NCBI GenBank assembly: GCA_947167345.1
Contig: CAMVHR010000001.1
Coordinates: 62,001-126,000 of the forward strand
Source: an uncultured Treponema sp.
GTDB lineage: Bacteria; Spirochaetota; Spirochaetia; Treponematales; Treponemataceae
Direction: 5' to 3'
DNA length: 64,000 nt
Part shown: positions 36,823 through 57,775 of the stretch, piece after piece
How the letters are laid out: every line of letters starts with the position of its first letter
Position numbering within the stretch: the stretch's first letter is position 1
Program-made: the position numbers and the translations under genes
The notes under the pieces: generated by a model
The model's database searches: none
What the model was told of the DNA's origin: nothing
The model's input: only the letters and a program-made list of their open reading frames with translations

Positions 36823-38913
36823 TTAATTTTTCCGACGCACTACAAATTCTATTTTGGGCTTGGATTTTCGGATATCATTTTGCTTTTTGTATTTTTTATA
36901 AAGAACTTCCTGAGCTCTTACGGTCTGTTCTTTTTTCAGTGGTTTGTTCTGTTTCCATGAGCCGTCTTTCTGTAAAGTGTGACTATGTGTATTGTCTTGA
37001 AAATATAAAAAGAGGATGTCTTTTACATTTTTAAAGACGGTTCTGTCTGTTATTGGAATCATCAGTTCAATACGCTTGTCAAGGTTTCGTTCCATCCAGT
37101 CGGCACTGCTTATGTATAATTCTTCCGCACCGCCGTTTTTAAAATAGAATATTCGGCTGTGTTCAAGATACCTGTCTATTATGCTGATTACGTCTATATT
37201 CTCACTTTTGTTTGCAAGCCCTGGCTTTAATGTGCATATACCCCTTACGTTTAGTTCTATCTTTACACCAGCCTTAGATGCCTTGTATAGCTCTTCGATT
37301 ATTTCCCTGTGGCACAGGCTGTTCATCTTTGCAACAATGTGTCCCGGGTTTTCAGGTGTGCTAAGGCTTATTTCACGTTCTATCATTTCGATCAGTTTTG
37401 ACTTTAATCCTGTCGGTGCCATGAACATGTGGCTCATAGTCTTTACAATGCTGTAACCTGAAATGACATTAAAGAACATCTGCGCGTCTGTAGCAATTTC
37501 ATGGTTCGATGTCAGAATGGAAAGATCCTGATAAAGTTTTGCTGTTTTGGGATTATAGTTTCCTGTGCTTACGTGAAGGTACCTTCTCATTCCGTCAGCT
37601 TCCCTTCTGATGACAAGACATAACTTCGCATGTACTTTTAGGTTTACAACACCGTAAATAACTGTTACTCCTGCATTTTCAAGTTCTGAAGACCATGATA
37701 TGTTGCGCTCTTCGTCAAAGCGAGCCTTTAATTCAATAAATACTGTTACGGCCTTTCCGTTTTGAGAAGCTTCCTTCAAGTATTTTATGATGGGGCTGTC
37801 ATTACCTGTCCTGTAAAGGGTTATCTTTATGGAAAGAACATTTTCATCACGTGCCGCATCCTTTATGAATTTTATTATTGGATCATAGCTTTCATAGGGA
37901 ACGTTTATTAATACGTCTTTTTGCCGCAGTGTATTCCAGTAAGTTTCTTCTTCCGGCAAATCGGGAGAATAAAAATTCTTCCATTCAGGGTATAAAAGAT
38001 TTTGTATGTCATCCAGCTGGGTAAGGGTAATAAGTTTGCTAGGATTGACAATGCCATATACTTTGTATACATCATCATCAGAAAGTGACAGCTTTTCCTG
38101 CATAAAGTTGAGCAATGTCTGGCTTGTTGATGTACAGACCATGCGCACTGCAAATGATGACTGCCGTTTGACAAGAATATTCTTCATTGCCTGAATAAAT
38201 TCTTTTGATTCTTCATCTACAGCAGAATCCGCATCCCTCACAATCTGAAAGAACATGGTTTCCTTTACCATGTAGCCAGGGAAAAGCTCTTTTCCGCATA
38301 GTGAAATTATATCATCAAGAAGCGTAAACTGACGTGCAGAGTCATTTGTCGGAAGCCATACAATACGCTCGATGTTTGACGGCAACTGAACAAGTGCAAT
38401 GGGGTGCTCTTCTGACGGCTGCATCATATCATTCTTTATTTTATGAACGCCGCTCATCTGTTCTAGGATGAAAGATGCATACGTCTCCATATTTTTTATT
38501 AAGGGAAAAGAAGTTCCATCTGTTCTCAACGGGGTAAGTACTTGTGCAATGTTATGCCGGAAATAACTTTCAATGTAGGCTTTCTGTGCTGGAGTGTAGG
38601 TTTTTGCATCTATGTAAGAAATGCCTTCGTTTGCCAGTTCTGGAAGAATTTCATTTTTTAGAATGTCATACTGAATGTCTGTAAGCTGGTGGCATCTTTT
38701 TGAAATCTTTTTTAGCAGGGGCTTTTGCTGTGGTTTTTGTCTTTTTACAGATGCAATTCGCACTTGAAAAAATTCATCAAAATTGCTGGAAACAATACAA
38801 ATGAATTTTAGCCGTTCCAGCAGAGGAATTTCTTTTCTTGCGGCTTCATTTAGCACTCGTGCGTTAAATTCTATCCAGCTTAGTTCTCTGTTAATAAAAT
38901 CTGTTTCTTCCAT
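36823..38913 (-). CDS. ppk: Polyphosphate kinase 1
   Basis: A 696-residue PPK1. The N-terminal domain opens FINRELSWIEFNARVLNEA. The catalytic part shows GNDSPIIKYLKEASQNGKAV, FIELKARFDEERNISWSSEL and the catalytic histidine His428 in NLKVHAKLCLV, with HVSTGNYNPKTAKLY after it. Length is standard. The enzyme makes polyphosphate from ATP reversibly. It is last in a minus-strand row after ppx, 23 bases or so downstream, so synthesis and breakdown genes are paired. AGAGGG precedes the ATG. Confidence 0.95.
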   Translation of the reverse strand: MEETDFINRELSWIEFNARVLNEAARKEIPLLERLKFICIVSSNFDEFFQVRIASVKRQKPQQKPLLKKISKRCHQLTDIQYDILKNEILPELANEGISYIDAKTYTPAQKAYIESYFRHNIAQVLTPLRTDGTSFPLIKNMETYASFILEQMSGVHKIKNDMMQPSEEHPIALVQLPSNIERIVWLPTNDSARQFTLLDDIISLCGKELFPGYMVKETMFFQIVRDADSAVDEESKEFIQAMKNILVKRQSSFAVRMVCTSTSQTLLNFMQEKLSLSDDDVYKVYGIVNPSKLITLTQLDDIQNLLYPEWKNFYSPDLPEEETYWNTLRQKDVLINVPYESYDPIIKFIKDAARDENVLSIKITLYRTGNDSPIIKYLKEASQNGKAVTVFIELKARFDEERNISWSSELENAGVTVIYGVVNLKVHAKLCLVIRREADGMRRYLHVSTGNYNPKTAKLYQDLSILTSNHEIATDAQMFFNVISGYSIVKTMSHMFMAPTGLKSKLIEMIEREISLSTPENPGHIVAKMNSLCHREIIEELYKASKAGVKIELNVRGICTLKPGLANKSENIDVISIIDRYLEHSRIFYFKNGGAEELYISSADWMERNLDKRIELMIPITDRTVFKNVKDILFLYFQDNTHSHTLQKDGSWKQNKPLKKEQTVRAQEVLYKKYKKQNDIRKSKPKIEFVVRRKN

Positions 38914-38936: not shown

Positions 38937-40466
38937 CTAGAGTATTACGAGCGAGTAACCAAATACATTTTCAAACAAATCGCCTTTTTCTGCAAGGGCG
39001 AGTTTTTCAAGGTTCAGGTTGTAGTGTCCTTTTATGCGGATTGTAACTGTGTCTTTTGAAAAAGAAAGCGTAAAGTTCTTTAACTTCTGGAGGTGGCTTC
39101 TGTCAAGAGCATCTGCAACACGGAGTATTGCGCTTAGTTTTAAAACTGTAAGGCGGCTTTCTCTTGGAAGCAGCTTTATTTCTGCATTACGCTGCGGTAT
39201 TTCCACTCCTTTATGAAAGTATGCAATGTTTGAAATGAGCGATACGTCTTCTTTGCTCAATCCGAAAATTTCGCTGTGTGTAATTATGTATTTTGAATGT
39301 TTGTTGTGCTCTTTTGCTCCAATGAACATGCCTATGTCGTGAAGGATTGCACTTATCTGCAAAAGGACTCTTGTGTGTGGTGTGAGCCCCAATTCTTTTT
39401 CCATTGCGTCATAAAGTTTAAGGCTGATTTCCTGAACAAACATTGCATGTTCTTCATCTCCCTGATATTTTCTGAGAAGTGTTGTTGCACTTGCTATAAT
39501 CTGTTCTGTAAATTCCTGTTGAATTTCTTCTGACGGCTCTGACTGCTGGCTGATTAAAATTCCTTCCCTAATGGAAGTTTCAGGTACTATTATGGATTGT
39601 ACATTTGTAAGGCGTATAAAATGTTTGTAGGCAATGAGTGACAGTTGGAATGTTCTTGCTTCGTTATAGCTAAGCTTGAATTTTGCAACACATTCTTCTT
39701 CCGTGTAATGCCTGATTTCATCAACAAAGTTTTCAAAATCATTTCTTTGAATTTCCCACAGGAATGTTGAAATTGAATGTCCTGCAAAAATCGCTGCAAG
39801 CTTCATGTCGCTGCCGAGTGCAATAAACTGCTGAACATTGCTAAGGTTCATTTCGGTACTGAGCGTAAATCTGGTATTCTGAATGAATTCTTCTATAAGC
39901 CGGTGGGCATCGTCAATTGTTCCTGTCATAGCCCTTATCTGCTGTTCTATAATGACAGTGCCAAGCCTCATGCTGTGTGCTCCGACCATGCGCCCTTTTT
40001 CCATGAGCATCATTTCTGTAGCTCCGCCAGCAATTTCAAGAATGATTGAATTGCTCTGCTGTACGCTTATGGTCTCGTCTTTTAGGCATTCCGTAACGGC
40101 AATGTACATGAGTCTGTTCTCTTCAATGCCGTCAATGACCATTACATTGAATCCTGTCGTGATTTTTATGCGGTCTACGAAAGTGTCTCTGTTAAGGGCT
40201 TCGCGGACAGCTGTTGTTCCTACGACTGTTGTTGCAGTCCTGCTGATTTGCCAGCTGTCTAAAAGTTCTCCAAAGCGGTTAAGGATTTTTTGTGCGGAAA
40301 GGAGTGTATTTTTGCTGATTGCACCCGTAGTGAACACATCCCGTCCTATGTTTACGGGCAGTTCGCTGCGGTCAAGAATGTTACGCTTTTTGTCTTCTGC
40401 AATTTCGGCTACTAACAGGCGTATCCCCGTCGAGCCAATTTCAATAACCGCCTGAGGTGCCTGCAT
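38937..40466 (-). CDS. ppx: Ppx/GppA exopolyphosphatase with HD domain
   Basis: About 509 residues. The N-terminal ASKHA ATPase-fold domain has VIEIGSTGIRLLVAEIAED and ILEIAGGATEMMLMEKGRM. From about residue 320 an HD-type domain follows (RVLLQISAILHDIGMFIGAK, then EHNKHSKYIITHSEIFGLS). Such proteins split polyphosphate or the pppGpp terminal phosphate. The start is uncertain: ATG at 40466 lies 12 bases from GAGAGG, while a TTG three codons upstream lies only three bases from it; I chose the ATG. It is followed by ppk and preceded by a glycosidase gene, with the order suggesting one operon. Confidence 0.9.
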   Translation of the reverse strand: MQAPQAVIEIGSTGIRLLVAEIAEDKKRNILDRSELPVNIGRDVFTTGAISKNTLLSAQKILNRFGELLDSWQISRTATTVVGTTAVREALNRDTFVDRIKITTGFNVMVIDGIEENRLMYIAVTECLKDETISVQQSNSIILEIAGGATEMMLMEKGRMVGAHSMRLGTVIIEQQIRAMTGTIDDAHRLIEEFIQNTRFTLSTEMNLSNVQQFIALGSDMKLAAIFAGHSISTFLWEIQRNDFENFVDEIRHYTEEECVAKFKLSYNEARTFQLSLIAYKHFIRLTNVQSIIVPETSIREGILISQQSEPSEEIQQEFTEQIIASATTLLRKYQGDEEHAMFVQEISLKLYDAMEKELGLTPHTRVLLQISAILHDIGMFIGAKEHNKHSKYIITHSEIFGLSKEDVSLISNIAYFHKGVEIPQRNAEIKLLPRESRLTVLKLSAILRVADALDRSHLQKLKNFTLSFSKDTVTIRIKGHYNLNLEKLALAEKGDLFENVFGYSLVIL

Positions 40467-40484
40467 CTGTACCAATAACCTCTC

Positions 40485-41915
40485 TTACAGTTTGTCAATG
40501 AGCATGGAACATTTTCCCGAAGGAATCGGCAATGTCTTTTTCTTCTGATTGAGTATATTGATGGTAAAGTAGTAAAGTTTTTCGCTTTCCATCTGGATTT
40601 CCCATCCGCGGTTACTCTTGTTACTCAAAATTGTAATAAGGTTGCGCTTGAGGGAAAGCTTTTCAATACCCATTATTTCAAGATTAGGGATAACCCAGTC
40701 TACTGTTTTTCGAGGCAGGCTTATGCTCAGGCCTATGACGTTTTCGATCATAAGGGCGATTGTTGAAAGCCCCAGAAAGTGCAGAAAACGCTTTCTCGGA
40801 AAATCCGGCCAGCCTGTCATTATTGCAGGACCTTCTGCTTCTGGCAGATAGGCTTCGTACAGATCGCCTTTTTTTGACGTGTCCAGAGGGCTTAGACCTT
40901 CGAGAATAAAATACATGTGCCTGATTGCACATTCGCGTGCAAAACCGTATCTCTGATACTTTTCAAGGCCTTTGATGACCATGAAATTGAAAGTCGGGAA
41001 TACGGAGCCTTTGAATCCTTCTCCATTTTTACTGAATTCAGGATGATCCTTACTTAGTGTCGGGAACGGATGTTCTGTTCCAAATGTTTCAGGATTGCTC
41101 AGGTGAGAAATAAGATTTTCTGCCCTGTCGGCATTCGGCAGTTCTGCAAGCAAAGGCCAGAATCCTGCAATTGTCTTGTGAGGAAGCCGTTTTTCTTCAC
41201 TGTCCAAGTCATGATAAAAACTTGTTTCAGTATCCCACATAAGGCTGTTTATTCTTGTTTTCAGGCTGAAATACAGCTTTTTGTACTGAAAGCTCAAATC
41301 CTTGTCATTCAGTATGTCGCCAAGTGCAGACATGTGTGCGGCATTAATAGCTATGCAGCTGTTAAAATCTACAGGATAATATGTTCCGTTACGCGGTGAA
41401 TTTGTCATTGTAGATGCCTGATGTGGCACTGCATAAAGGCCGTTCTGCTTCTTGAACGTTGTGTCAATCCAGTTCATGTATTTGCACAATATCGGCATTA
41501 CTTCTTTTATTCGTCTTTTGTTTGCGCTTTTGTGATAAAGATTGTATTCTGCCCATGCAAAAAGTGGAAGTCCAATTCCCTCTGGATTTGTTTCGTCTAA
41601 AATAGGTTGATTTGTAGTTGCATCATATTTCCAGCGGATGGCACCGTTTTCTTCCTGTCTTTCATAAAAATAGTCAATATTTTTGTTTGCAGGATAATTT
41701 CGGTTTGAATAGACTAGAAAAAAAGATGAAAATATGGATTCTGATTGATCCAGTATGTATTTTCCATTTACAGGATAAATGAAATATCCGTCAGGTGAAA
41801 GTTCCCCTGTTTTTGGTTCAATCCAATAGTCTGAAAGCCAGTTCCATGTTTTATTGTAAATGTCAACAAAATCCTGATCGTAAAAGTGGATTTTGGGAAA
41901 ATCGTGCTTGTTCAC
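40485..41915 (-). CDS. Alpha-toroid glycoside hydrolase (trehalase/GH63-like)
   Basis: A 476-residue cytoplasmic protein with the six-hairpin (alpha/alpha)6 pattern of trehalase-type and MGH1-type glycosidases: IYPVNGKYILDQSESIFSSF, TNPEGIGLPLFAWAEYNLY, NSPRNGTYYPVDFNSCIAIN, KTIAGFWPLLAELPNADRAE and RHMYFILEGLSPLDTSK. A general trehalase/GH63-like call is supported, but the exact family and substrate are not. The C-terminal 80 residues form a small beta domain. It heads a minus-strand group with ppx and ppk. Whether that links sugar and phosphate storage is a guess. No signal peptide is seen. Confidence 0.65.
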   Translation of the reverse strand: MNKHDFPKIHFYDQDFVDIYNKTWNWLSDYWIEPKTGELSPDGYFIYPVNGKYILDQSESIFSSFFLVYSNRNYPANKNIDYFYERQEENGAIRWKYDATTNQPILDETNPEGIGLPLFAWAEYNLYHKSANKRRIKEVMPILCKYMNWIDTTFKKQNGLYAVPHQASTMTNSPRNGTYYPVDFNSCIAINAAHMSALGDILNDKDLSFQYKKLYFSLKTRINSLMWDTETSFYHDLDSEEKRLPHKTIAGFWPLLAELPNADRAENLISHLSNPETFGTEHPFPTLSKDHPEFSKNGEGFKGSVFPTFNFMVIKGLEKYQRYGFARECAIRHMYFILEGLSPLDTSKKGDLYEAYLPEAEGPAIMTGWPDFPRKRFLHFLGLSTIALMIENVIGLSISLPRKTVDWVIPNLEIMGIEKLSLKRNLITILSNKSNRGWEIQMESEKLYYFTINILNQKKKTLPIPSGKCSMLIDKL

Positions 41916-42042: not shown

Positions 42043-44469
42043 ATGTATCAGTCCCGTATTTATCTTGAAGTTCGTGTTCTTCTGTCAGCAGTTCCAGGTG
42101 TTTTTACTGCTGTTGAATTAAATGATGGAAAAAAAGGCATTTTAAATGCAAAAGCAGATTTTTTGCGCAGAAATAATTCTCCTGTACAGCTGGCAAAAGT
42201 TGATGTTCAGCCGTCTGTACTGCATAAAGTTGCCCTGTTTGTAAATGCAGTTGGAGGCACAATGTTGAGCTCCGGCAAACTGGAGCATCTGACAGGGGCT
42301 TTGCCAGAACCTCCTGATGACAAAAATTTTACCGGTTATTCTATACGTGTTGCAGAAGGTGGAAAACTTGATATCATATATCACCAGAAGCAAAAGACTA
42401 TTAATATAGAAGAAATCCGTATAGAAGAAGATCGTGGCAAGCTTACTAGAACTGCTGGTAAGAAGGCTAAAATGGATTGGACATTTGCCGGTTGCCCTGT
42501 AATGCGCATACGTACGTCAAATGTTTTTGAGCTTGGTGGTGAAGCTGAAGTTTTTCTTCAGGAACTTGAAACTCTTTTGGCATATTTACGATTTACAACT
42601 GGCGATGTTCAGGAAAACGGCATAAGGTGTAATGCCTATGTTTCTTTGTGCGAATATCCTGAAGAACCTCTATATTCTGTTAAATTACGCAACTTGAATT
42701 CGTTTAATTTTGTCCGCAAGGCAATCGACAGTGAGCTTTCCAGACAGGAATCGGTTCTTTCTTCTGGTGAGAAAGTTTCTGCAGAAAGCCGTCTGTGGAA
42801 TGAGCAGCTTAATGCGACAGAATTCTGGCAGCAGCGGAAGCCTGATTTGGTACGCTTTGCTTTGGTAAATCCTCCTGTCAATGTTGCAATTTCTGATGCA
42901 GTCGCTTTTGAAGCTTCCGAAGTGGAACTGCCTGAAAAAAGACGTGAGCGCCTGCGTTCATCTTACGGACTGTCTCGCTTGCGCACTATGTTTCTGTGTG
43001 CCGAAAAAGACAGGGCTGATTATTTTGAGTCTGCCGTTAAGCATGGTGCTCCGGCAATGCTTGCCGCTCACTGGCTTGCAAGCGAAGTTATGAAAATCCT
43101 TAATAGAAGCGGAAAGTCTATAAGGCAATGCAAGCTTACTGCGGAAAAATTTGCCCGTGTTCTTGTTCTGCTTGATGAAGGCAAAATTCATAGCGGTATG
43201 GCAAAGGATATTATGCAGGCTGTTGCACTTGACGGCAGTGATGTTGATGAAATAATAAAAAAGCAAGGTCTGGTTCTTTTATCTACAAAAGAAGAGCTGG
43301 AACCTGTAATTGACAGTGTTCTTGCTGAATACCCTAAGAGCGTAGCTTCTTTAAAAGAAGGCAATATGGCTCCTCTTGAGTTCCTGACCGGTTGTGTCAT
43401 GAAAAAAACGGAAGGAAAGGCTGTTCCTACAGTAGTAAAGGCTCTGCTAAAAGAAAAACTTTCTATAAGCATTGTCTACGTTCTTACTATGGGCGGTTCA
43501 ATTACAGCTGAAAAACATGATGATGGCACAGTTGTTGCAGGAAGTTCTCAAAGCATTATGCAGAGTATTATGCCTTTGCTTGAAGGTGACAATGGAAATT
43601 TCCCGGTGCAGGTTGTTTCTGTTTGCGATATGCTCAGCGAAGAAACTGAGCCTAAAGATTGGGCAAAGCTTATTGCCGTCATAAAGGAAAAGATTGAGAG
43701 CGGTACTGCAAACGGCATTGTTGTGACACATGGTACTGATACCCTTTCTTATACGGCGGCATTGCTGTTCTGGCTTTTTTCTGCATCAGATGTACCTGTC
43801 GTGCTTACGGCTTCATCTTCCCTTTCCAAAGCAGAAGCTGGAGCAAATTTGAACCTTGCAATTCAAACTGCCCGTGAACGTAAGAACGGAGTCTGCGTTG
43901 TTTATGGAAACAAAATTCTTCCTGCATTGAATTTGAAATATGTAAGCAATGATACTGATGGGTTCATTAACTGGAATATGAAAAAGCCTGTATTCTTTGC
44001 TAATACTGTTTTGAGCCAGCAGTTTCTGTCTGTTTCAATGCCTGAAACGGAAATAATGAGTTTTATCCTTAATGAAGCTGCTGAACGGCTTTCCGTCATA
44101 AGGCTTTATCCTGGTCTGCTCATGAACAGGCTTGAAAAGATGATAGGTGATGAATCTTCTATAGATACTGTAATATTGGAGCTGTATTCTTCTGGAACAG
44201 GAAACATGAAGAATAGCGACTATTCGCTAAAAACATTTTTGACGAAAGGCCGACAGCATGGCATTACATTCTGCTGTACCTCTCAGCAGGAAAGTTTTGT
44301 TGATTTTTCGGAATATTCAACGAGCGCACAGTTGTGGCAGGCCGGAACTGTGCCATTTGGCAATTTGACGACAGAATCTGTAACTGCATTGTATTTTGCA
44401 GCTTCTCTTATTGCCGATAATCATAACGAGCTTGATGAAATCATGGAAAGTTCCATAGAGTTGCTGTAG
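42043..44469 (+). CDS. Degenerate GatB-like domain fused to a type I asparaginase domain
   Basis: An 808-residue fusion. Residues 1 to about 470 follow GatB (aspartyl/glutamyl-tRNA amidotransferase subunit B) in order: IYLEVRVLL, GYSIRVAEGGKLDI, EEIRIEEDRGKL, DWTFAGCPVMRIRTSN, GIRCNAYVSLCEYP, KLRNLNSFNFVRKAIDSEL, RLWNEQLNATEFWQ, ELPEKRRERLRSSYGLS and a YqeY-like tail (AEKFARVLVLLDEGKIHSGM). The catalytic GLEVH motif is altered to YLEVR and the cysteine zinc site of GatB is absent. Residues 475-808 are an asparaginase/GatD-type domain: LTMGGSITAE (residues 481-490) and THGTDTLSY with Thr565 and Asp566. The first catalytic threonine of GGT is replaced by serine (Ser486). In archaea, GatE and GatD carry these two functions as separate chains. 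Ammonia release for tRNA amidation is one possibility; loss of the GatB motifs makes it doubtful. Confidence 0.85.
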   Translation: MYQSRIYLEVRVLLSAVPGVFTAVELNDGKKGILNAKADFLRRNNSPVQLAKVDVQPSVLHKVALFVNAVGGTMLSSGKLEHLTGALPEPPDDKNFTGYSIRVAEGGKLDIIYHQKQKTINIEEIRIEEDRGKLTRTAGKKAKMDWTFAGCPVMRIRTSNVFELGGEAEVFLQELETLLAYLRFTTGDVQENGIRCNAYVSLCEYPEEPLYSVKLRNLNSFNFVRKAIDSELSRQESVLSSGEKVSAESRLWNEQLNATEFWQQRKPDLVRFALVNPPVNVAISDAVAFEASEVELPEKRRERLRSSYGLSRLRTMFLCAEKDRADYFESAVKHGAPAMLAAHWLASEVMKILNRSGKSIRQCKLTAEKFARVLVLLDEGKIHSGMAKDIMQAVALDGSDVDEIIKKQGLVLLSTKEELEPVIDSVLAEYPKSVASLKEGNMAPLEFLTGCVMKKTEGKAVPTVVKALLKEKLSISIVYVLTMGGSITAEKHDDGTVVAGSSQSIMQSIMPLLEGDNGNFPVQVVSVCDMLSEETEPKDWAKLIAVIKEKIESGTANGIVVTHGTDTLSYTAALLFWLFSASDVPVVLTASSSLSKAEAGANLNLAIQTARERKNGVCVVYGNKILPALNLKYVSNDTDGFINWNMKKPVFFANTVLSQQFLSVSMPETEIMSFILNEAAERLSVIRLYPGLLMNRLEKMIGDESSIDTVILELYSSGTGNMKNSDYSLKTFLTKGRQHGITFCCTSQQESFVDFSEYSTSAQLWQAGTVPFGNLTTESVTALYFAASLIADNHNELDEIMESSIELL

Positions 44470-50433: not shown

Positions 50434-51999
50434 TCATTTTTGTGGAAAATTTGCTACAATATATGTATGTTCATGGCTTTGGAACTTCTTTTTGCTGAAT
50501 TTGAACATGAGTGTGTCTGAGTCCGTTTTTCCTGCCTTTATGATGAACATCCCGTAGGGACGAATCTCATGCCTTGCGTTGAAGGCATAAAAAACAGGTC
50601 CGTCATATTTATATCCATAGTCATCATAATCAGATTTATGCAGACTCCACAGATAGGAACTGCTTTTAGTTCTGCATGCACAATCTATGGAATATGCCTT
50701 TAAAAGCTGTTGCATGGATTTACTTGTAGCATTTGTAATGGAATTTATGTCCGTGTACTGATTTGTGGCAAGCTTTCTAATTAGAGCTGTTCCACCATAG
50801 TTCCTGTACAGCCATGTTCCGAACGCATAGTTTGCCGCATACGAAAGCATTGCGTGATAGTGCGAACATCCCCTGTATTCAAGGCCGCATTCGGCGTATC
50901 CTGAGTTGAAAAGTGCAAGCCTTGAATTCAAGTTAGCATTTTCTTCATCCTCATTTATTATTTCCTCGCACAATAATGACATCATTTCGCTGAATGCATC
51001 TGCATCAGGAAGGTCATGTATCAAAACCTTTTGGTTGTAACTTATCATGTGCTGGAATTCATGTGCAAGAGTTGATATGCATACATCGATATCGGCTTCT
51101 GCCCACTGGGAGTCAATGTATATATATTTGCCTTCATTTGAGTAGTTTAGTATGCCATGTTCATAATCATTTTCACTTGGAAAATAATCCTTTGAATAAA
51201 AATATCCGACTACTCCGTTATTTTCCCTGTTTATGTCATATACGACGATATTAACTTTTGTTCCTGTTCCACTCATGTATTCAAGTCTTTTCGGTTCAAA
51301 GAATTTTCCATTGTAGTTGCAAAACATAAAATCAGATTCTTTTCCGAACAGAAACCTTATTTTTTCATACATGGCATCAAATGCCACGCTCATTTTTTGT
51401 GCAGCTTTCATTATTTTTTCTGGACTGCCGTCTCCGTCTACTGCCCAGACATAACAGAACTTGCCTTTTGAAGCCAATGTGGCAGATTTTTTTTTGTAAA
51501 TCGTCATGTCTGAATTTATGTCTACAAAAATATCCTTTCTGCACCCTTCGTCATATTCTTTTTGTATGATTACTTTGCTTTTTTTCTTGTTTGATTCTTT
51601 GTGCGCATCATAGGAATTTAGCTTTTCGGTTTTTCTGAATATTTTATGCGGACCAAATCCTGATGATGGAGTTGTTAAAGACTGTCTGCTTTGAGTTTTT
51701 TCAAACTCTTCTTTTGGATTTTTTACATTTAGTGAGATACCTTCTGCTTCTAAAACATATATGGCAGATTCTTTTGGAATAACCTTGTCTGAAGTATTTG
51801 TTTTTGTTATGTATATTTCAGTTCCTATAGGAACATTTTGAATTACAAGTCTGTCTGTGCCGTCTGAAAGCTCATATACGGCACTTTCATTTAGACGCTC
51901 AAAGTCTGAAAAGTCAATAATCCTGCCTTCTGCACTTTTTCTTGTACAGCATGAGGTGAGTTCTGCCAGTGCAAAAAACAGAATTAAAAGATTTTTCAT
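50434..51999 (-). CDS. Lipoprotein metallopeptidase (HExxH, M30-like)
   Basis: A 521-residue lipoprotein (signal FFALAELTSC, lipobox LTS-C). The zinc motif HEFQH is at residues 313-317 within STLAHEFQHMISYNQK. A downstream acidic region (DADAFSEMMSLLCEEIINED) could hold the third zinc ligand. Overall it resembles M30-type (hyicolysin) peptidases, though this assignment is by memory and partial. It starts one base after the alpha-2-macroglobulin gene, so a protease and a protease-trapping protein are encoded together. Substrate unknown. Confidence 0.7.
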   Translation of the reverse strand: MKNLLILFFALAELTSCCTRKSAEGRIIDFSDFERLNESAVYELSDGTDRLVIQNVPIGTEIYITKTNTSDKVIPKESAIYVLEAEGISLNVKNPKEEFEKTQSRQSLTTPSSGFGPHKIFRKTEKLNSYDAHKESNKKKSKVIIQKEYDEGCRKDIFVDINSDMTIYKKKSATLASKGKFCYVWAVDGDGSPEKIMKAAQKMSVAFDAMYEKIRFLFGKESDFMFCNYNGKFFEPKRLEYMSGTGTKVNIVVYDINRENNGVVGYFYSKDYFPSENDYEHGILNYSNEGKYIYIDSQWAEADIDVCISTLAHEFQHMISYNQKVLIHDLPDADAFSEMMSLLCEEIINEDEENANLNSRLALFNSGYAECGLEYRGCSHYHAMLSYAANYAFGTWLYRNYGGTALIRKLATNQYTDINSITNATSKSMQQLLKAYSIDCACRTKSSSYLWSLHKSDYDDYGYKYDGPVFYAFNARHEIRPYGMFIIKAGKTDSDTLMFKFSKKKFQSHEHTYIVANFPQK

Positions 52000-52000
52000 T

Positions 52001-55000
52001 CTATTTTATAGTCCAGACTTTGCCGTCTGTCCTTCCAAAAATTTCTTCCTCGTACATGCATTCAGCTGTTGCACACGGAGTTTTGTATTCGCCTTTGCGA
52101 ACTGCCCTGAACTGGAATTCTACCTGCTGCACTCCTGCAGGAAAGTAATCCCAGAAGAACTGTGTTTCTGCATCGTATATGCCTTTGTAAGAAAGACCCC
52201 TTGTTGCTTCTGTAAGGTTTTCAATAGTACCAGTTGTTACAAATGCACTATTCAGTATTTCGCATCCTGCTGGAACAGGAGCGCGGACGGCAACGTATTC
52301 TGCCCTTATTCGTGAAGATACTATTACTTTTTCGCGGTAAATGTTTCCTGCTGTAAGTTCACTTTCTTTTACAACTTTTCCTGTCTTTGCGTCAGTAATC
52401 TCGGTGTAAATGCATAGCCCCTCGTCTCTTGCTGTCTGTTTTTCTGCTGGAAGGGCATATTTCATTGATGCTGTGTAGAAAAGTGTACCCTTGCCTGACT
52501 TAGTAAATGTTACATCAAGATTTCTATCTTTTGGAGTTACTGTTGTTTCTACAGGCTTTGCCGCAACTCCATTAAAGGTCCCTCTCAATGTCGATGTGCC
52601 ATTTAAAAGTACATCTGCTGTAAAGTTCAGCTTTTCAAGATTATTGCTTTTGATATAGTCGTTTAGTGCAATAAGGACTCTGCTTGTGACTGCTGTTGAC
52701 TGCCAGCGTCCATTGTGTGCTTTTTGCATTTTCAAAAGTTCATAGACAATGTGCTGGTTAGTGCTGTCTTTTGCGTTAAGGCGTGTAAGAAGCTGCAGCA
52801 GCAATGCGTATCGTTCTGAGTCATCATTAAAGAAACACCAGTAATGTTTTTTGTACTTCTGAGAAATGTCAATTCCTCGGCTTGTCATTCTGGTGTATGA
52901 AAGAATTTTCTGATACAAGTCTTCTGCCTGTTTTCTGCTGCCTTTTGCAAGGTATGCAAGGGCTGCAAGCTCTAGAGTTTCAACATCCGCACCTTCACTT
53001 TCTGTAATTAAAGCCAATGAATTGTCCTTTATGTCAGCACCAAGCATAGCCGCGCCGTATAATGCATACGATGCCCTGTATAAAGTCCAAGGTTGCTTTG
53101 ATTCGTTCAAAGCCTTTTCTGCTTCCTTTACAAGATAAGCTGCCAGTGCTTTTTCATCTGTCTTTCCTGTCGGAATTCCGTTCTGTTTTGCAAGGGCTAG
53201 AATTTCAGCAATCCTCATTGATACAAACGGACTGCTTTCTTTTCCTCCCTTCCAGTAAGGAAAGCCTCCGTCTACCCTCTGTACCGGAGCCCAGCTGTAA
53301 ATTTCATGCTCTGCAACACCATTTGCAGATTTTACTTCACTGTTTAAGCCGAATACATCTATGTAGTCTCCGAATGCTACAAGAGGAAGTACGGCGGCAG
53401 AACGCTGTTCCATGCAGCCGTACGGATAGTGGAATACATAACTTACGGCTTCTCTGAGTACCCCGAGTCGGGTAGGATCAAGCTGAACATATACACTATA
53501 ACGTGAGTCCTCTGCATCATCTGGAATGATAATCTTTTCTGTTACAGAGTCTTCTGTACTTCCTGTTGTCGTTACTGTTTCATAAATGTAAGGCTTTTCT
53601 ATCTGGAGCGGTAGCAGAATCTTTTCGTTTATGTTACTGCCTGTAACTTTGAATTCTACAGTAATCCAGCCTTGCTTTATAGCTTTTATTGAGAACATGA
53701 GAGGCTGCGTTTTGTTTGCCGCAACCTTGATTTTTTGCAAATTCTTTTTATCTGCCACCAAGGCTGAGCCTGGAATCTTTTGTATGTCATCGCTGTTCTG
53801 CGTATAGTTTACGCCTTCATATACGCTAATCTCTACATTTACATTTTGGGCTTTGCCTGTAAGATTTGAAATGACTACTCCGAGTTCTGCCTTATCATCA
53901 GGGCGGAGCATTCTTGGCAGTGCAGTCCGCACTGAAATCGGTTCGCATACGGAGATTTCTTCTTCTGTCTTGCCGAATGCATTACTGTCATCGATGGCAA
54001 CTGCCGTTATTCTATATGAAGTGAGCGAGTCGGGGAGTGTAACGCTGCATGTAGCCTTTCCGCTCTTATCCGTAATTATGTATGGTTCAAAGGCGGCTGT
54101 AGACGCAAAGTTTGAACGTATTTTCATGCCGTCTGAGCCAGCTTCTTCATCAGAAGCAGCCATCATTGGAGCGGCTTCCATTTTATATACTCTTGTAGCA
54201 CCTTTTGCCTTGTTGCTTGTAGCAAAAAGTGCATCTTCCGCTGCACTTTCCATTTCGACTTGTTCCTGCATTATCAGAAGAGAGCGGGAGTCACCTCCCA
54301 GCGTGCGGTTGTAGAACCTGTTTCTGTCATAGAAATATGAAAGTGGATCCTCTACGTGATAACCAATAAGGTCAAGAATTCCCCTGTCTACTGCCATGAG
54401 TGTGATTGCGGCATTTTTAGCAGGTTTGCCGTTCTGTGTCGCTGTAATTGTAAATTTTGCCTTGTCTCCAGGCTGGTAGCTTTCTTTGTCAGGTTTTATG
54501 GATACGTCTATTTTTTTTGTGGCAGCATTTATATTTAAAGCCGTCACTCCGTAATAGCTTTTTGGTGCATCATTCCCAGTCCGTACTGAATATGTTGAGA
54601 CTGAAACATATATTACCGGTACGTAAGATTCTTCAATTTTTACGTCGATTATATTGGAAGGTTCTGTAAGAGTTACTGCTTTTTCTGAAAGTACACCCTC
54701 CCTTTCTATCGTGATAAGGTACGTTCCCTTTGGAAGTTCTGTTTGTGTGAGTATGTGTGCAGTATCTCCAGCATTGTATTCTTCCTTGTCAGGAGTAAGC
54801 CTTACTTGCTGGCTGTCGTTTGTGTCATGCACAAACCATCCGCTTCCTGTAACATAAAAACTTCTTTCTGTAATGACAGGATTCCCCTTTGAGTCATTGC
54901 AGGTCATCTTTAAAAGATATGCACCACTTTCTTTTGGCTTTACAGTTATTTCGGCAGGCTTTGCAGAAGACGGAAGTTTTACAGTCCTTGATTCTTCTAC

Positions 55001-57775
55001 AGTCAGTTGTTTTTCGTATCGTACTGAAACATATCCTGAAGGCTCTAATGTCTGGATTCTTTTCCAGTTTTCGCGTATAAGTTCTGCCTTTACTTCACCT
55101 GATTTTGGAAGTGCGTTCTTTGCGGGAAAATCTTCATCAGGTGTAATGCACACATAATCAAACTTTATGCTGTCACCTTTTTTTGCAAATCCCTTTACAT
55201 TTTTTTCGCTTCCTATGCCTATGTAGAATTGGGATGGATGGACAATGGCTGATGAACTTGTGCTTATTGCTTGGTTTCCACTGTCTGTAACTTGTGTCTC
55301 TACTGTATATCTTATAGGAATGCCATTGTTTTCTATACTGCCGGTTGTCTGTGATGTAGATGCCTTTCCGTCTGAGTCAAGAAGTCCGCTTTCAGTTCCA
55401 AGATATCCTTGGGTATATTGATGTGTGAGAGAGCCAAACCTCATGGACTTGTATTCCTTTTTCTGCGGAATAAATGAAGTTCCCTCGTATCTCCATTGAG
55501 AGCTGTAGTTGCTGTCGGCAAGGCTTCCTCCGCCAAGATATCTTGCGCTTATGAGTGCTGAAAGACTGTCACCGTAGATATATGTGCTGTCTTCAATGGA
55601 AGAATTTGCTTCAAAACGCAGCTTTTCAAAAAACTGTACGTTTACAGGAATGCTTTCGGATGTTTTTTGACCGTCACAGTTTCGTGTGTATACAATATTA
55701 TAATCCCCAGGCTTTATGTCCTCTGGTAATTTAAATGTTCCCCATGCACTTCCATGCTTGGAAAGTTTTCCTTTGTTTGTTCCATAAATCTGCCTGCTTC
55801 CCCTGTTATAACCTGTAAGCTCGATGGTAAAGTTTGATTCTGTTTCTGGAACAGCATTGTATGTGCCCTTTTTAAGGTTACGGTCTATTATTATGTAGGA
55901 AACAGTTTCCCCAGGCTTATAAAGTTTTCTGTCTGTAAACAAAAATGCAACCATCTGATTTTTTAATGTTGTTTCAAACTCTGGTCGCGGATTGCTGTAT
56001 AGATATTTTAAAGGTCTGCCCCAGTCATTGCTTGCATAAAGAATTCTGTCATTGTCTGTTTTTGCTTCAAAGAACATGCTTCTTGCTGTTGTAAGATTTT
56101 TTATCTGTTCTTCTGTAAAGTCTATTTCCGCAATGCCACTTGCATTCGTAGTGGCACTTGCAATGACAGAATGGCTCTGTACGAGACATTCTGCGTATGT
56201 CAGCGATTTGTCAATGAACATGACGCTTACTTTTGCATTTGCTACAGGTTTGCCTGTCTTCATGCTGGAAACGAGGACAACGGCCTTGTTGTATCCGTAT
56301 CGTGCTGTAACAGCAAGGTCTGTAACCTGTATGATCTGTTCATTTTCTGCAGTAGCTGTTTCAGTTTTGTATTCTTTTGATTTCCAATCCCTGTATCTGC
56401 ATTCATAGGGAATGTTCGCCTTAAAACGTACTGCACCCCTGTATTCCCCGTCAGAAATCGTAAGATATGGACGCAAGTCTATTTTTTCTGATGTAATTTT
56501 GTTCTTTTCAATCTTGTCAACATCAATTGTTATTGTCTTGGATGATGCTCCATTCTTTGAACCTGTCGCATCTGTAAGTGGCTCTATTGTATAATAAGCA
56601 GGAGCCTTTATGTTTTGGTAGGTGAATGATATGAACGGTGCAAACTGAGATTCAAGCGTCATAAAACCGCTGTTCTTAAATCTTACAAAACTCTTTGCGT
56701 CTGGGGCTGTTACCTTGAATGTGTAATCACTTGTAAGTTTTCTTCCATATATATCACTAAAATCTTTGTTTATGGTAATGCTGTATGTTTGCTCATAAGT
56801 GACAGGCAGTGAATGTATTGTAAGAGAATGTCCGCTTATCTTTATGTTTTCTTTTGTTATTTTGTAGCTTTTTGCTGAACCTGTATCACATTCTATGTGT
56901 TTGGCAAGTTCTTCTTCATTCCCATCTTTTAGTTCTGTGCTGAAATATACGTATACGGGCAGAAAGATGTCTTCACTGTACCATGACGGCTGTGTGTCAG
57001 TGTCGGTTACTTTGAACTTTACGATTGTGTGAAAGCTTTCACTTGTTTCTTTTTGTGAGGCATGGCAGTCTTTGTCGGCTAGTGCTCCTTTTTGCAGCGT
57101 TACTTTTATGTCTGTGTCTTCTGGAAGATCTTCCTGTACTGTAAGATGCACAATGTTTTTGTCTTCCTGTAAAGCTGTAAAATTAAAGTTTTTTGAATGA
57201 CCTGAATTTTCTGCCTGTACGGTAAGAAAATCCTTTACAACAGCTGCATTTACGGGTGCGTTAAAAAATACTGCTATGTCCTTTGCCAGCTGTACGGGTA
57301 CATTGTTTCTAGTTACGTACTGTCCGTTCTTTTCGTGTCCGTATCCTGGATGAACGGATGTTATTTTCAAGTCTTCAGTGTGGAATGTATATTCTGTCTT
57401 TCCCTGTATCTTATTGCCTTTGAGGGAAGTTGTGTTTGGGTTTATTTTTATGGTATATGTTTTTTGCGGAATTGCTTCTTCGTCACTTTCAAAGCTTAAT
57501 ATACTTGTGCCATACCAGCGGTACACTCCCTTCAGCTTTGGTTCTATGCTGACTATGGAAGATGTCGCGGTCGGATTCCCAAGAGCCTTAAGTTCTGTTA
57601 CCGGCTGTGAAAAGTGAATTTGTATTGCAGGATACTTTACGCTTGCAGGAAGTTCCCCTTGTGGAGTAACGTTCAGCACCTTGAATTCTGAATCTTCACC
57701 ATTTTGTGCATGAATTGCTGTTGTAAAAACGCTTGCTGCCATAATCATAAAAAATGTAAGTATACCCTTGTGCAT
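52001..57775 (-). CDS. Bacterial alpha-2-macroglobulin
   Basis: A 1924-residue exported protein with a signal peptide (MHKGILTFFMIMAASVFTTA, cleavage near IHA-QN). Multiple macroglobulin-like beta domains fill the first 1150 residues (for example YTIKINPNTTSLKGNKIQGK, FLFTDRKLYKPGETVSYI). The thioester motif is intact: CMEQ at residues 1454-1457 in YPYGCMEQRSAAVLPL. The complement-like helical domain follows (RVDGGFPYWKGGKESSPFVS). No lipobox is seen. Such proteins trap attacking proteases in the periplasm. The usual partner PbpC is not next to it; instead a HEFQH lipoprotein follows in the same operon. An AAGGA ribosome-binding site precedes the ATG. Confidence 0.93.
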   Translation of the reverse strand: MHKGILTFFMIMAASVFTTAIHAQNGEDSEFKVLNVTPQGELPASVKYPAIQIHFSQPVTELKALGNPTATSSIVSIEPKLKGVYRWYGTSILSFESDEEAIPQKTYTIKINPNTTSLKGNKIQGKTEYTFHTEDLKITSVHPGYGHEKNGQYVTRNNVPVQLAKDIAVFFNAPVNAAVVKDFLTVQAENSGHSKNFNFTALQEDKNIVHLTVQEDLPEDTDIKVTLQKGALADKDCHASQKETSESFHTIVKFKVTDTDTQPSWYSEDIFLPVYVYFSTELKDGNEEELAKHIECDTGSAKSYKITKENIKISGHSLTIHSLPVTYEQTYSITINKDFSDIYGRKLTSDYTFKVTAPDAKSFVRFKNSGFMTLESQFAPFISFTYQNIKAPAYYTIEPLTDATGSKNGASSKTITIDVDKIEKNKITSEKIDLRPYLTISDGEYRGAVRFKANIPYECRYRDWKSKEYKTETATAENEQIIQVTDLAVTARYGYNKAVVLVSSMKTGKPVANAKVSVMFIDKSLTYAECLVQSHSVIASATTNASGIAEIDFTEEQIKNLTTARSMFFEAKTDNDRILYASNDWGRPLKYLYSNPRPEFETTLKNQMVAFLFTDRKLYKPGETVSYIIIDRNLKKGTYNAVPETESNFTIELTGYNRGSRQIYGTNKGKLSKHGSAWGTFKLPEDIKPGDYNIVYTRNCDGQKTSESIPVNVQFFEKLRFEANSSIEDSTYIYGDSLSALISARYLGGGSLADSNYSSQWRYEGTSFIPQKKEYKSMRFGSLTHQYTQGYLGTESGLLDSDGKASTSQTTGSIENNGIPIRYTVETQVTDSGNQAISTSSSAIVHPSQFYIGIGSEKNVKGFAKKGDSIKFDYVCITPDEDFPAKNALPKSGEVKAELIRENWKRIQTLEPSGYVSVRYEKQLTVEESRTVKLPSSAKPAEITVKPKESGAYLLKMTCNDSKGNPVITERSFYVTGSGWFVHDTNDSQQVRLTPDKEEYNAGDTAHILTQTELPKGTYLITIEREGVLSEKAVTLTEPSNIIDVKIEESYVPVIYVSVSTYSVRTGNDAPKSYYGVTALNINAATKKIDVSIKPDKESYQPGDKAKFTITATQNGKPAKNAAITLMAVDRGILDLIGYHVEDPLSYFYDRNRFYNRTLGGDSRSLLIMQEQVEMESAAEDALFATSNKAKGATRVYKMEAAPMMAASDEEAGSDGMKIRSNFASTAAFEPYIITDKSGKATCSVTLPDSLTSYRITAVAIDDSNAFGKTEEEISVCEPISVRTALPRMLRPDDKAELGVVISNLTGKAQNVNVEISVYEGVNYTQNSDDIQKIPGSALVADKKNLQKIKVAANKTQPLMFSIKAIKQGWITVEFKVTGSNINEKILLPLQIEKPYIYETVTTTGSTEDSVTEKIIIPDDAEDSRYSVYVQLDPTRLGVLREAVSYVFHYPYGCMEQRSAAVLPLVAFGDYIDVFGLNSEVKSANGVAEHEIYSWAPVQRVDGGFPYWKGGKESSPFVSMRIAEILALAKQNGIPTGKTDEKALAAYLVKEAEKALNESKQPWTLYRASYALYGAAMLGADIKDNSLALITESEGADVETLELAALAYLAKGSRKQAEDLYQKILSYTRMTSRGIDISQKYKKHYWCFFNDDSERYALLLQLLTRLNAKDSTNQHIVYELLKMQKAHNGRWQSTAVTSRVLIALNDYIKSNNLEKLNFTADVLLNGTSTLRGTFNGVAAKPVETTVTPKDRNLDVTFTKSGKGTLFYTASMKYALPAEKQTARDEGLCIYTEITDAKTGKVVKESELTAGNIYREKVIVSSRIRAEYVAVRAPVPAGCEILNSAFVTTGTIENLTEATRGLSYKGIYDAETQFFWDYFPAGVQQVEFQFRAVRKGEYKTPCATAECMYEEEIFGRTDGKVWTIK

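Follow-up and report, generated by a model that had tools for sequence, protein, structure and literature searches.

In Deinococcus and Thermus, asparagine is made on tRNA by a nondiscriminating aspartyl-tRNA synthetase (ND-AspRS) together with the transamidase GatCAB, which in Thermus is stabilised by its ND-AspRS, one of archaeal type (PMC4206432). The 64-kb stretch of Treponema DNA analysed here (the window) holds a gene that joins a GatB-like protein to an asparaginase-like domain; a literature search with poor coverage of subscription journals found no published description of a fusion of this kind.

An intact GatB–asparaginase fusion gene

The fusion gene (42043..44469, + strand) is a single intact frame of 808 aa with an ATG start. 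Its GatB half (residues 1–473; 42043..43461, +) consists of a degenerate cradle/kinase domain and a YqeY-like tail, as recognised by Pfam and NCBIfam models, and is followed by an asparaginase/GatD-like domain (residues 478–808; 43474..44466, +). Matches to Pfam GatB_N (residues 97–265, E 4e-25), GatB_Yqey (residues 326–473, E 7e-41) and Asparaginase (residues 478–647, E 1.3e-28) exceed their cut-offs, and Asparaginase_C matches weakly (residues 684–801, E 7.5e-06, 26.3 bits against a cut-off of 34.6). Among PDB structures, the first half is related to GatB of S. aureus, T. maritima and A. aeolicus, and the second to asparaginase I and GatD. These domain matches and the intact frame bear out the preliminary description of the locus in placing a GatB-like protein and an asparaginase, in that order, in one chain. 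It was also accurate about the sequence motifs, that is, YLEVR at residues 7–11, GGS at 484–486, an intact HGTDT at 563–567 and the absence of the CxC…CPxC zinc cysteines from the window protein. Several other fusion members (L007–L010, L049 and L051) keep the zinc cysteines, whereas the window's genus has lost them.

The window protein lies under the curated NCBIfam cut-offs for GatB equivalogs (250.5 bits against 338 and 231.8 against 314.8), and GatE models score far lower on it (49–73 bits against cut-offs of 319–456), so that the first half is GatB-like and does not fit the single-chain GatE–GatD analogue that had been proposed. The asparaginase half is likewise under the cut-offs for asnASE_I (105 against 260.5 bits) and GatD (91–93.5 against 310–324 bits), and by score is about equally close to both. 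An AlphaFold2 model built from the window protein and two 85–87% identical copies from metagenome-assembled genomes (MAGs) only had a pLDDT of 37.

Estimates of dN/dS for six pairs were 0.04–0.10 in both halves of the fusion, and 0.02–0.05 for plain gatB in two of the same pairs; some of the pairs approach saturation at synonymous sites, which makes these values approximate. Together with the intact frames in the window's order, this selection on both halves means that the fusion is not a product of chance.

Operonic and orphan forms

About 70 fusion relatives were found, of two kinds and every one from the window's class, Spirochaetia. The samples comprised the window's kin and 393 genomes of its phylum, within which the confinement to Spirochaetia holds, and then 395 genomes of the class, which added families. 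We aligned 50 fusions and scored them at key positions: 31 orphans from Treponema's order, each intact and about 780–850 aa long, and 19 operonic forms from other families. The nearest named copies of the window fusion are in rumen Treponema MAGs. Most genomes in the window's genus lack the gene, and one relative within that genus, with a genome 99% complete, has it broken into several short frames (G127:C21:43634-45448, L061); the gene is therefore dispensable rather than essential.

Outside Treponema's order the fusion lies in an operon with the layout gatC–gatA–gatB::asparaginase–nondiscriminating AspRS. In all neighbourhoods read of kinase-intact fusions (L058, L060, L062–L068 and L158–L171), gatA is directly upstream and AspRS directly downstream, and gatC is seen where the locus reaches far enough. 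The AspRS is nondiscriminating according to two NCBIfam equivalogs (530 bits against a cut-off of 353, two examples tested), and the fusions themselves exceed the GatB cut-offs, with 519–565 bits for TIGR00133 and 593–627 for NF004012. A GatB_N search of five operonic genomes found no GatB besides the fusion in any of them; AsnRS is encoded in all five and GlnRS in four. Among 11 operonic-fusion genomes tested for asparagine synthetases, five had no AsnA or AsnB match (G254, G407, G428, G496 and G546), four had AsnA (clear in G336, G370 and G366, below the cut-off in G477) and in the other two AsnB alone matched, partially or below the cut-off. All 19 operonic forms have an intact kinase site, and all 19 have Ala at the position of the asparaginase primary nucleophile, Thr12. 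The operonic form thus looks like a system for tRNA-dependent asparagine synthesis with a pseudo-asparaginase attached. A search for RNA families in seven related loci matched SRP RNA alone and revealed no known T-box or riboswitch family near the operons.

Several variants accompany this pattern. In the single-contig genome G254, gatA (L065:10188-11644) is split into two overlapping frames of 351 and 190 aa within an otherwise intact operon, possibly through a frameshift or a sequencing error. Four loci (L071–L074, in G301, G392, G064 and G381) have the same gatC–gatA–gatB–AspRS operon with a plain gatB that has no asparaginase domain; two of them (L072 and L073) also have the glycoside-hydrolase neighbour described below, which indicates that the domain was lost or gained more than once. 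Free-standing asparaginase matches in these genomes are mostly short, only two being full-length. The short frames, of about 166–228 aa (L113, L122, L125 and L129, and by length L131, L132, L134 and L135), have an intact GGT motif where read, and several of their host genomes also carry the fusion; they are probably short-chain asparaginases as in PMC10949315.

In Treponema's order the fusion genes stand alone, with gatC, gatA and AspRS absent from every locus read. Wherever the locus extends far enough, they adjoin a divergent glycoside-hydrolase gene that also flanks the operons, and ppx and ppk lie near both orphan and operonic fusion loci. On comparison of neighbourhoods, the corresponding anchors in the window are an MGH1-like/trehalase-like glycoside hydrolase (40485..41915, −), a Ppx/GppA phosphatase (38937..40475, −) and a polyphosphate kinase (36823..38913, −). 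Given these shared surroundings, the most plausible reading is that the window gene descends, in place, from the gatB of the operon. Elsewhere in the window are a 1,924-aa bacterial alpha-2-macroglobulin-like protein (52001-57775, −) and, adjoining it, an M30-peptidase-like protein (50434-51999); no RNA families and no tRNA genes were found in the 64 kb.

Orphan-bearing genomes have a second, plain gatB elsewhere, which in the window's family adjoins the sole gatA. As the preliminary description had advised, we looked for GatCAB, GlnRS and AsnRS: the window genome encodes a canonical gatC–gatA–gatB operon (G000:C32:23440-26799; L070, L097), whose gatA and gatC are the only ones in the genome, as well as AsnRS, AsnA and AsnB; GlnRS was not detected in it. 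In the GatB tree, the orphans form a clade (support 100/100, stem 1.11) nested in the spirochaetal GatB group; the plain GatB found in the window's family groups instead with T. maritima, outside the spirochaetal set, a moderately supported placement (83/71) that is suggestive of replacement, as if by transfer.

Kinase site and asparaginase-like pocket

Comparison of the two kinds of fusion revealed a set of fixed substitutions in the GatB kinase site (S. aureus GatB numbering taken from the PDB alignment; E125 and E150 also count out directly). Of the Mg2+-ligand positions H12, E125 and E150, the window protein has R, E and R: Arg11 (42073..42075, +) replaces His12 and is Arg in 31/31 orphans against His in 19/19 operonic forms, and Arg155 (42505..42507, +) replaces Glu150 and is Arg in 29/31 against Glu in 19/19. 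Arg126 (42418..42420, +) stands at the His122 position (R 31/31, H 19/19), Asn197 (42631..42633, +) at that of Asp192 (N 30/31, D 19/19), and Lys214-Leu-Arg216 (42682..42690, +) covers Glu210 and Lys212 (K 31/31 against E 19/19; R 30/31 against K 19/19). E124 and E125 are still Glu in 31/31 orphans, the S153 position is Thr in 31/31, and N213 and N215 are also kept; all of these listed positions are canonical in 19/19 operonic forms. The Arg of the YLEVR motif pointed out in the preliminary description is thus invariant in the window's order, and all 19 operonic relatives read canonical GLEIH.

In yeast GatB, H36, E156 and E186 bind Mg2+, and E34, T189, N230 and S232 bind ATP (PMC4027206). Judged by motif and spacing, the Mg2+ ligands would correspond to H12, one of E124/E125, and E150, and the ATP contacts to E10, S/T153 and N213, among others; on these equivalences, two of the three metal ligands would have turned to Arg in the orphans and the ATP-contact residues would have been retained. 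Its fixed set of Arg and Lys residues suggests that the former kinase pocket may bind an anion, such as a nucleotide or tRNA, without Mg2+.

These changes are confined to one half of the protein. Twelve columns are fixed differently (at least 90%) between orphans and operonic forms; every one of them lies in the GatB half, and six are the polar kinase-site positions H12R, H122R, E150R, D192N, E210K and K212R. Of 206 GatB-half columns conserved in operonic forms, 48 are kept in orphans and 12 switched; for 81 such columns in the asparaginase half, the counts are 49 and 0. The stem at the orphan switch measures 0.89 for the GatB half against 0.24 for the asparaginase half. In the GatB half, total within-group length is 12.0 (19 orphans) against 3.6 (11 operonic forms); in the asparaginase half it is 8.3 against 8.1. 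The GatB half thus sped up on becoming an orphan, and the asparaginase half kept its pace.

The Thr12 position of the asparaginase half, Ser486 in the window protein (43498..43500, +), is Ala in 21 of the 31 orphans, Ser in five (the window protein and its nearest relatives), Thr in four and Val in one; Ser, Thr and Val occur in orphans only, and over all 50 scored members Ala accounts for 40. The GGS motif singled out in the preliminary description is therefore a feature of the window's kin. Homologues with canonical motifs, which that description had regarded as evidence against its reading, were found for the GatB half and not for the asparaginase half. The rest of the pocket is kept: S58 in 50/50, T89 in 47/50, D90 in 50/50 and K or R at K162 in 50/50, and the Thr89–Asp90–Lys162 triad is present in the window protein as HGTDT (43729..43743, +) and K632. 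E. coli asparaginase II with the T12V substitution is inactive and binds L-Asn like the wild type (PMC7567106), which shows that losing Thr12 alone need not abolish binding. With the pocket as the constant part and the kinase as the changed part, the simplest account is that the domain is a module that binds a ligand, probably Asn or Asp.

Candidate functions and comparison with known systems

On balance, we favour a reading of the window protein as a double pseudoenzyme that arose from a native gatB::pseudo-asparaginase and acts as a ligand-responsive binding or regulatory protein; the Treponema fusion probably regulates by binding an amino acid and does not catalyse a reaction. The ancestor would have been a native gatC–gatA–gatB::pseudo-asparaginase(–ndAspRS) operon, of which the window gene is the surviving last part. 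In this ancestral form, which would persist in other Spirochaetia families, GatB would be an active transamidase subunit, and the nucleophile-less asparaginase fold attached to it would be expected to bind Asn or Asp, most simply to sense the product of the tRNA-dependent route to asparagine. The locus in Treponema's order would then have lost gatC, gatA and AspRS, with amidation done by another gatCAB, and the GatB kinase site rebuilt by fixed substitutions that turned Mg2+ ligands into Arg, after which phosphorylation of aminoacyl-tRNA by the known mechanism would no longer be possible. What is left would be a presumably non-catalytic protein under strong purifying selection, whose asparaginase-like half would bind Asn or Asp and whose GatB half would bind tRNA, a nucleotide or another anion, with a regulatory role exerted through some putative partner. 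A more specific version, in which the pseudo-asparaginase on GatB is an Asn sensor that tunes GatCAB and ND-AspRS and was freed in Treponema as an Asn-responsive tRNA- or nucleotide-binding regulator, we put forward tentatively, as one possibility. A product sensor would leave the survival of the gene in genomes with both AsnA and AsnB unexplained, GatCAB there probably serving tRNA-Gln.

Readings that keep the protein catalytic fare poorly. The preliminary description's single-chain GatDE-like amidotransferase is very improbable. The domain content does resemble GatB/E plus GatD, and the asparaginase half is as near GatD as asparaginase I, but the kinase Mg2+ ligands are lost, as is the nucleophile in most members, and the window genome has a separate, complete GatCAB and no second GatA. 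Moreover, the intact relatives, far from working without GatA and GatC, keep gatA and gatC in the ancestral operon, so that the asparaginase-like domain is no substitute for GatA as an ammonia source, and with the nucleophile missing from all 19 operonic forms, no GatD-type activity could supply ammonia. It is also improbable that the window protein is active in a new form, as an asparaginase or glutaminase with Ser486 as its nucleophile. Ser in the window protein and its nearest relatives, Thr in four other orphans and the kept second triad would allow residual hydrolysis in those members; however, the domain is equally conserved where the position is Ala or Val, which means that the function shared by all members cannot need the hydroxyl.

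Two further alternatives dispense with the ligand. Decay of a functionless relic would match the patchy distribution in the genus, the one broken copy and the loss of the kinase site, but it is largely excluded by the low dN/dS in both halves, the intact frames of nearly all copies and the appearance of new invariant residues. An unlikely but more substantial alternative is a purely structural asparaginase-like domain that senses no ligand and gives dimerisation or stability to GatCAB and, later, to the orphan. Solved asparaginases are dimers or tetramers, a tendency to dimerise that such a module could exploit; the loss of the nucleophile from every operonic form would be expected, and the stabilisation of GatCAB by the Thermus ND-AspRS (PMC4206432) offers a precedent. 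Against it, S58, T89, D90, K162 and the HGTDT loop vary less than structure alone would require. Regulation by a ligand-binding double pseudoenzyme accords with the lost partners, the fixed kinase switch and the selection in both halves, and in this respect the preliminary description's suggestion of a repurposed or regulatory protein fits the evidence. One locus thus presents a natural series, from a plain GatB through an active GatB with a dead asparaginase to an orphan in which both activities are apparently gone and selection persists. The series opens two questions to direct tests: whether a pseudoenzyme domain exerts feedback control on asparagine formation by transamidation, and how a subunit of a core translation enzyme can be turned to another use after losing its partners.

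Among described proteins, the window protein shares its family with bacterial GatB, the GatCAB subunit (NF004012/TIGR00133), over the whole first half including the YqeY-like tail; it differs in its added C-terminal asparaginase-like domain, its score below the cut-off, its replaced Mg2+ ligands and the absence of adjacent gatA and gatC. The asparaginase half aligns with similar scores to archaeal GatD (TIGR02153) and type I asparaginase (TIGR00519), and combines an S-E-[DE] motif, as in GatD, with HGTDT; unlike either, it falls below the curated cut-offs, has no nucleophile in most members and is joined to GatB. With archaeal GatE the window protein has in common the kinase and the YqeY-type tail, but it scores low and its Pfam domains include no AspRS-like insert. 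The operonic relatives come closest to the arrangement in Deinococcus and Thermus, with gatC–gatA–gatB beside a nondiscriminating AspRS, and AsnRS and mostly GlnRS in the genome; they differ from it in that their GatB bears a pseudo-asparaginase, and the window genome differs further in having lost the operon form.
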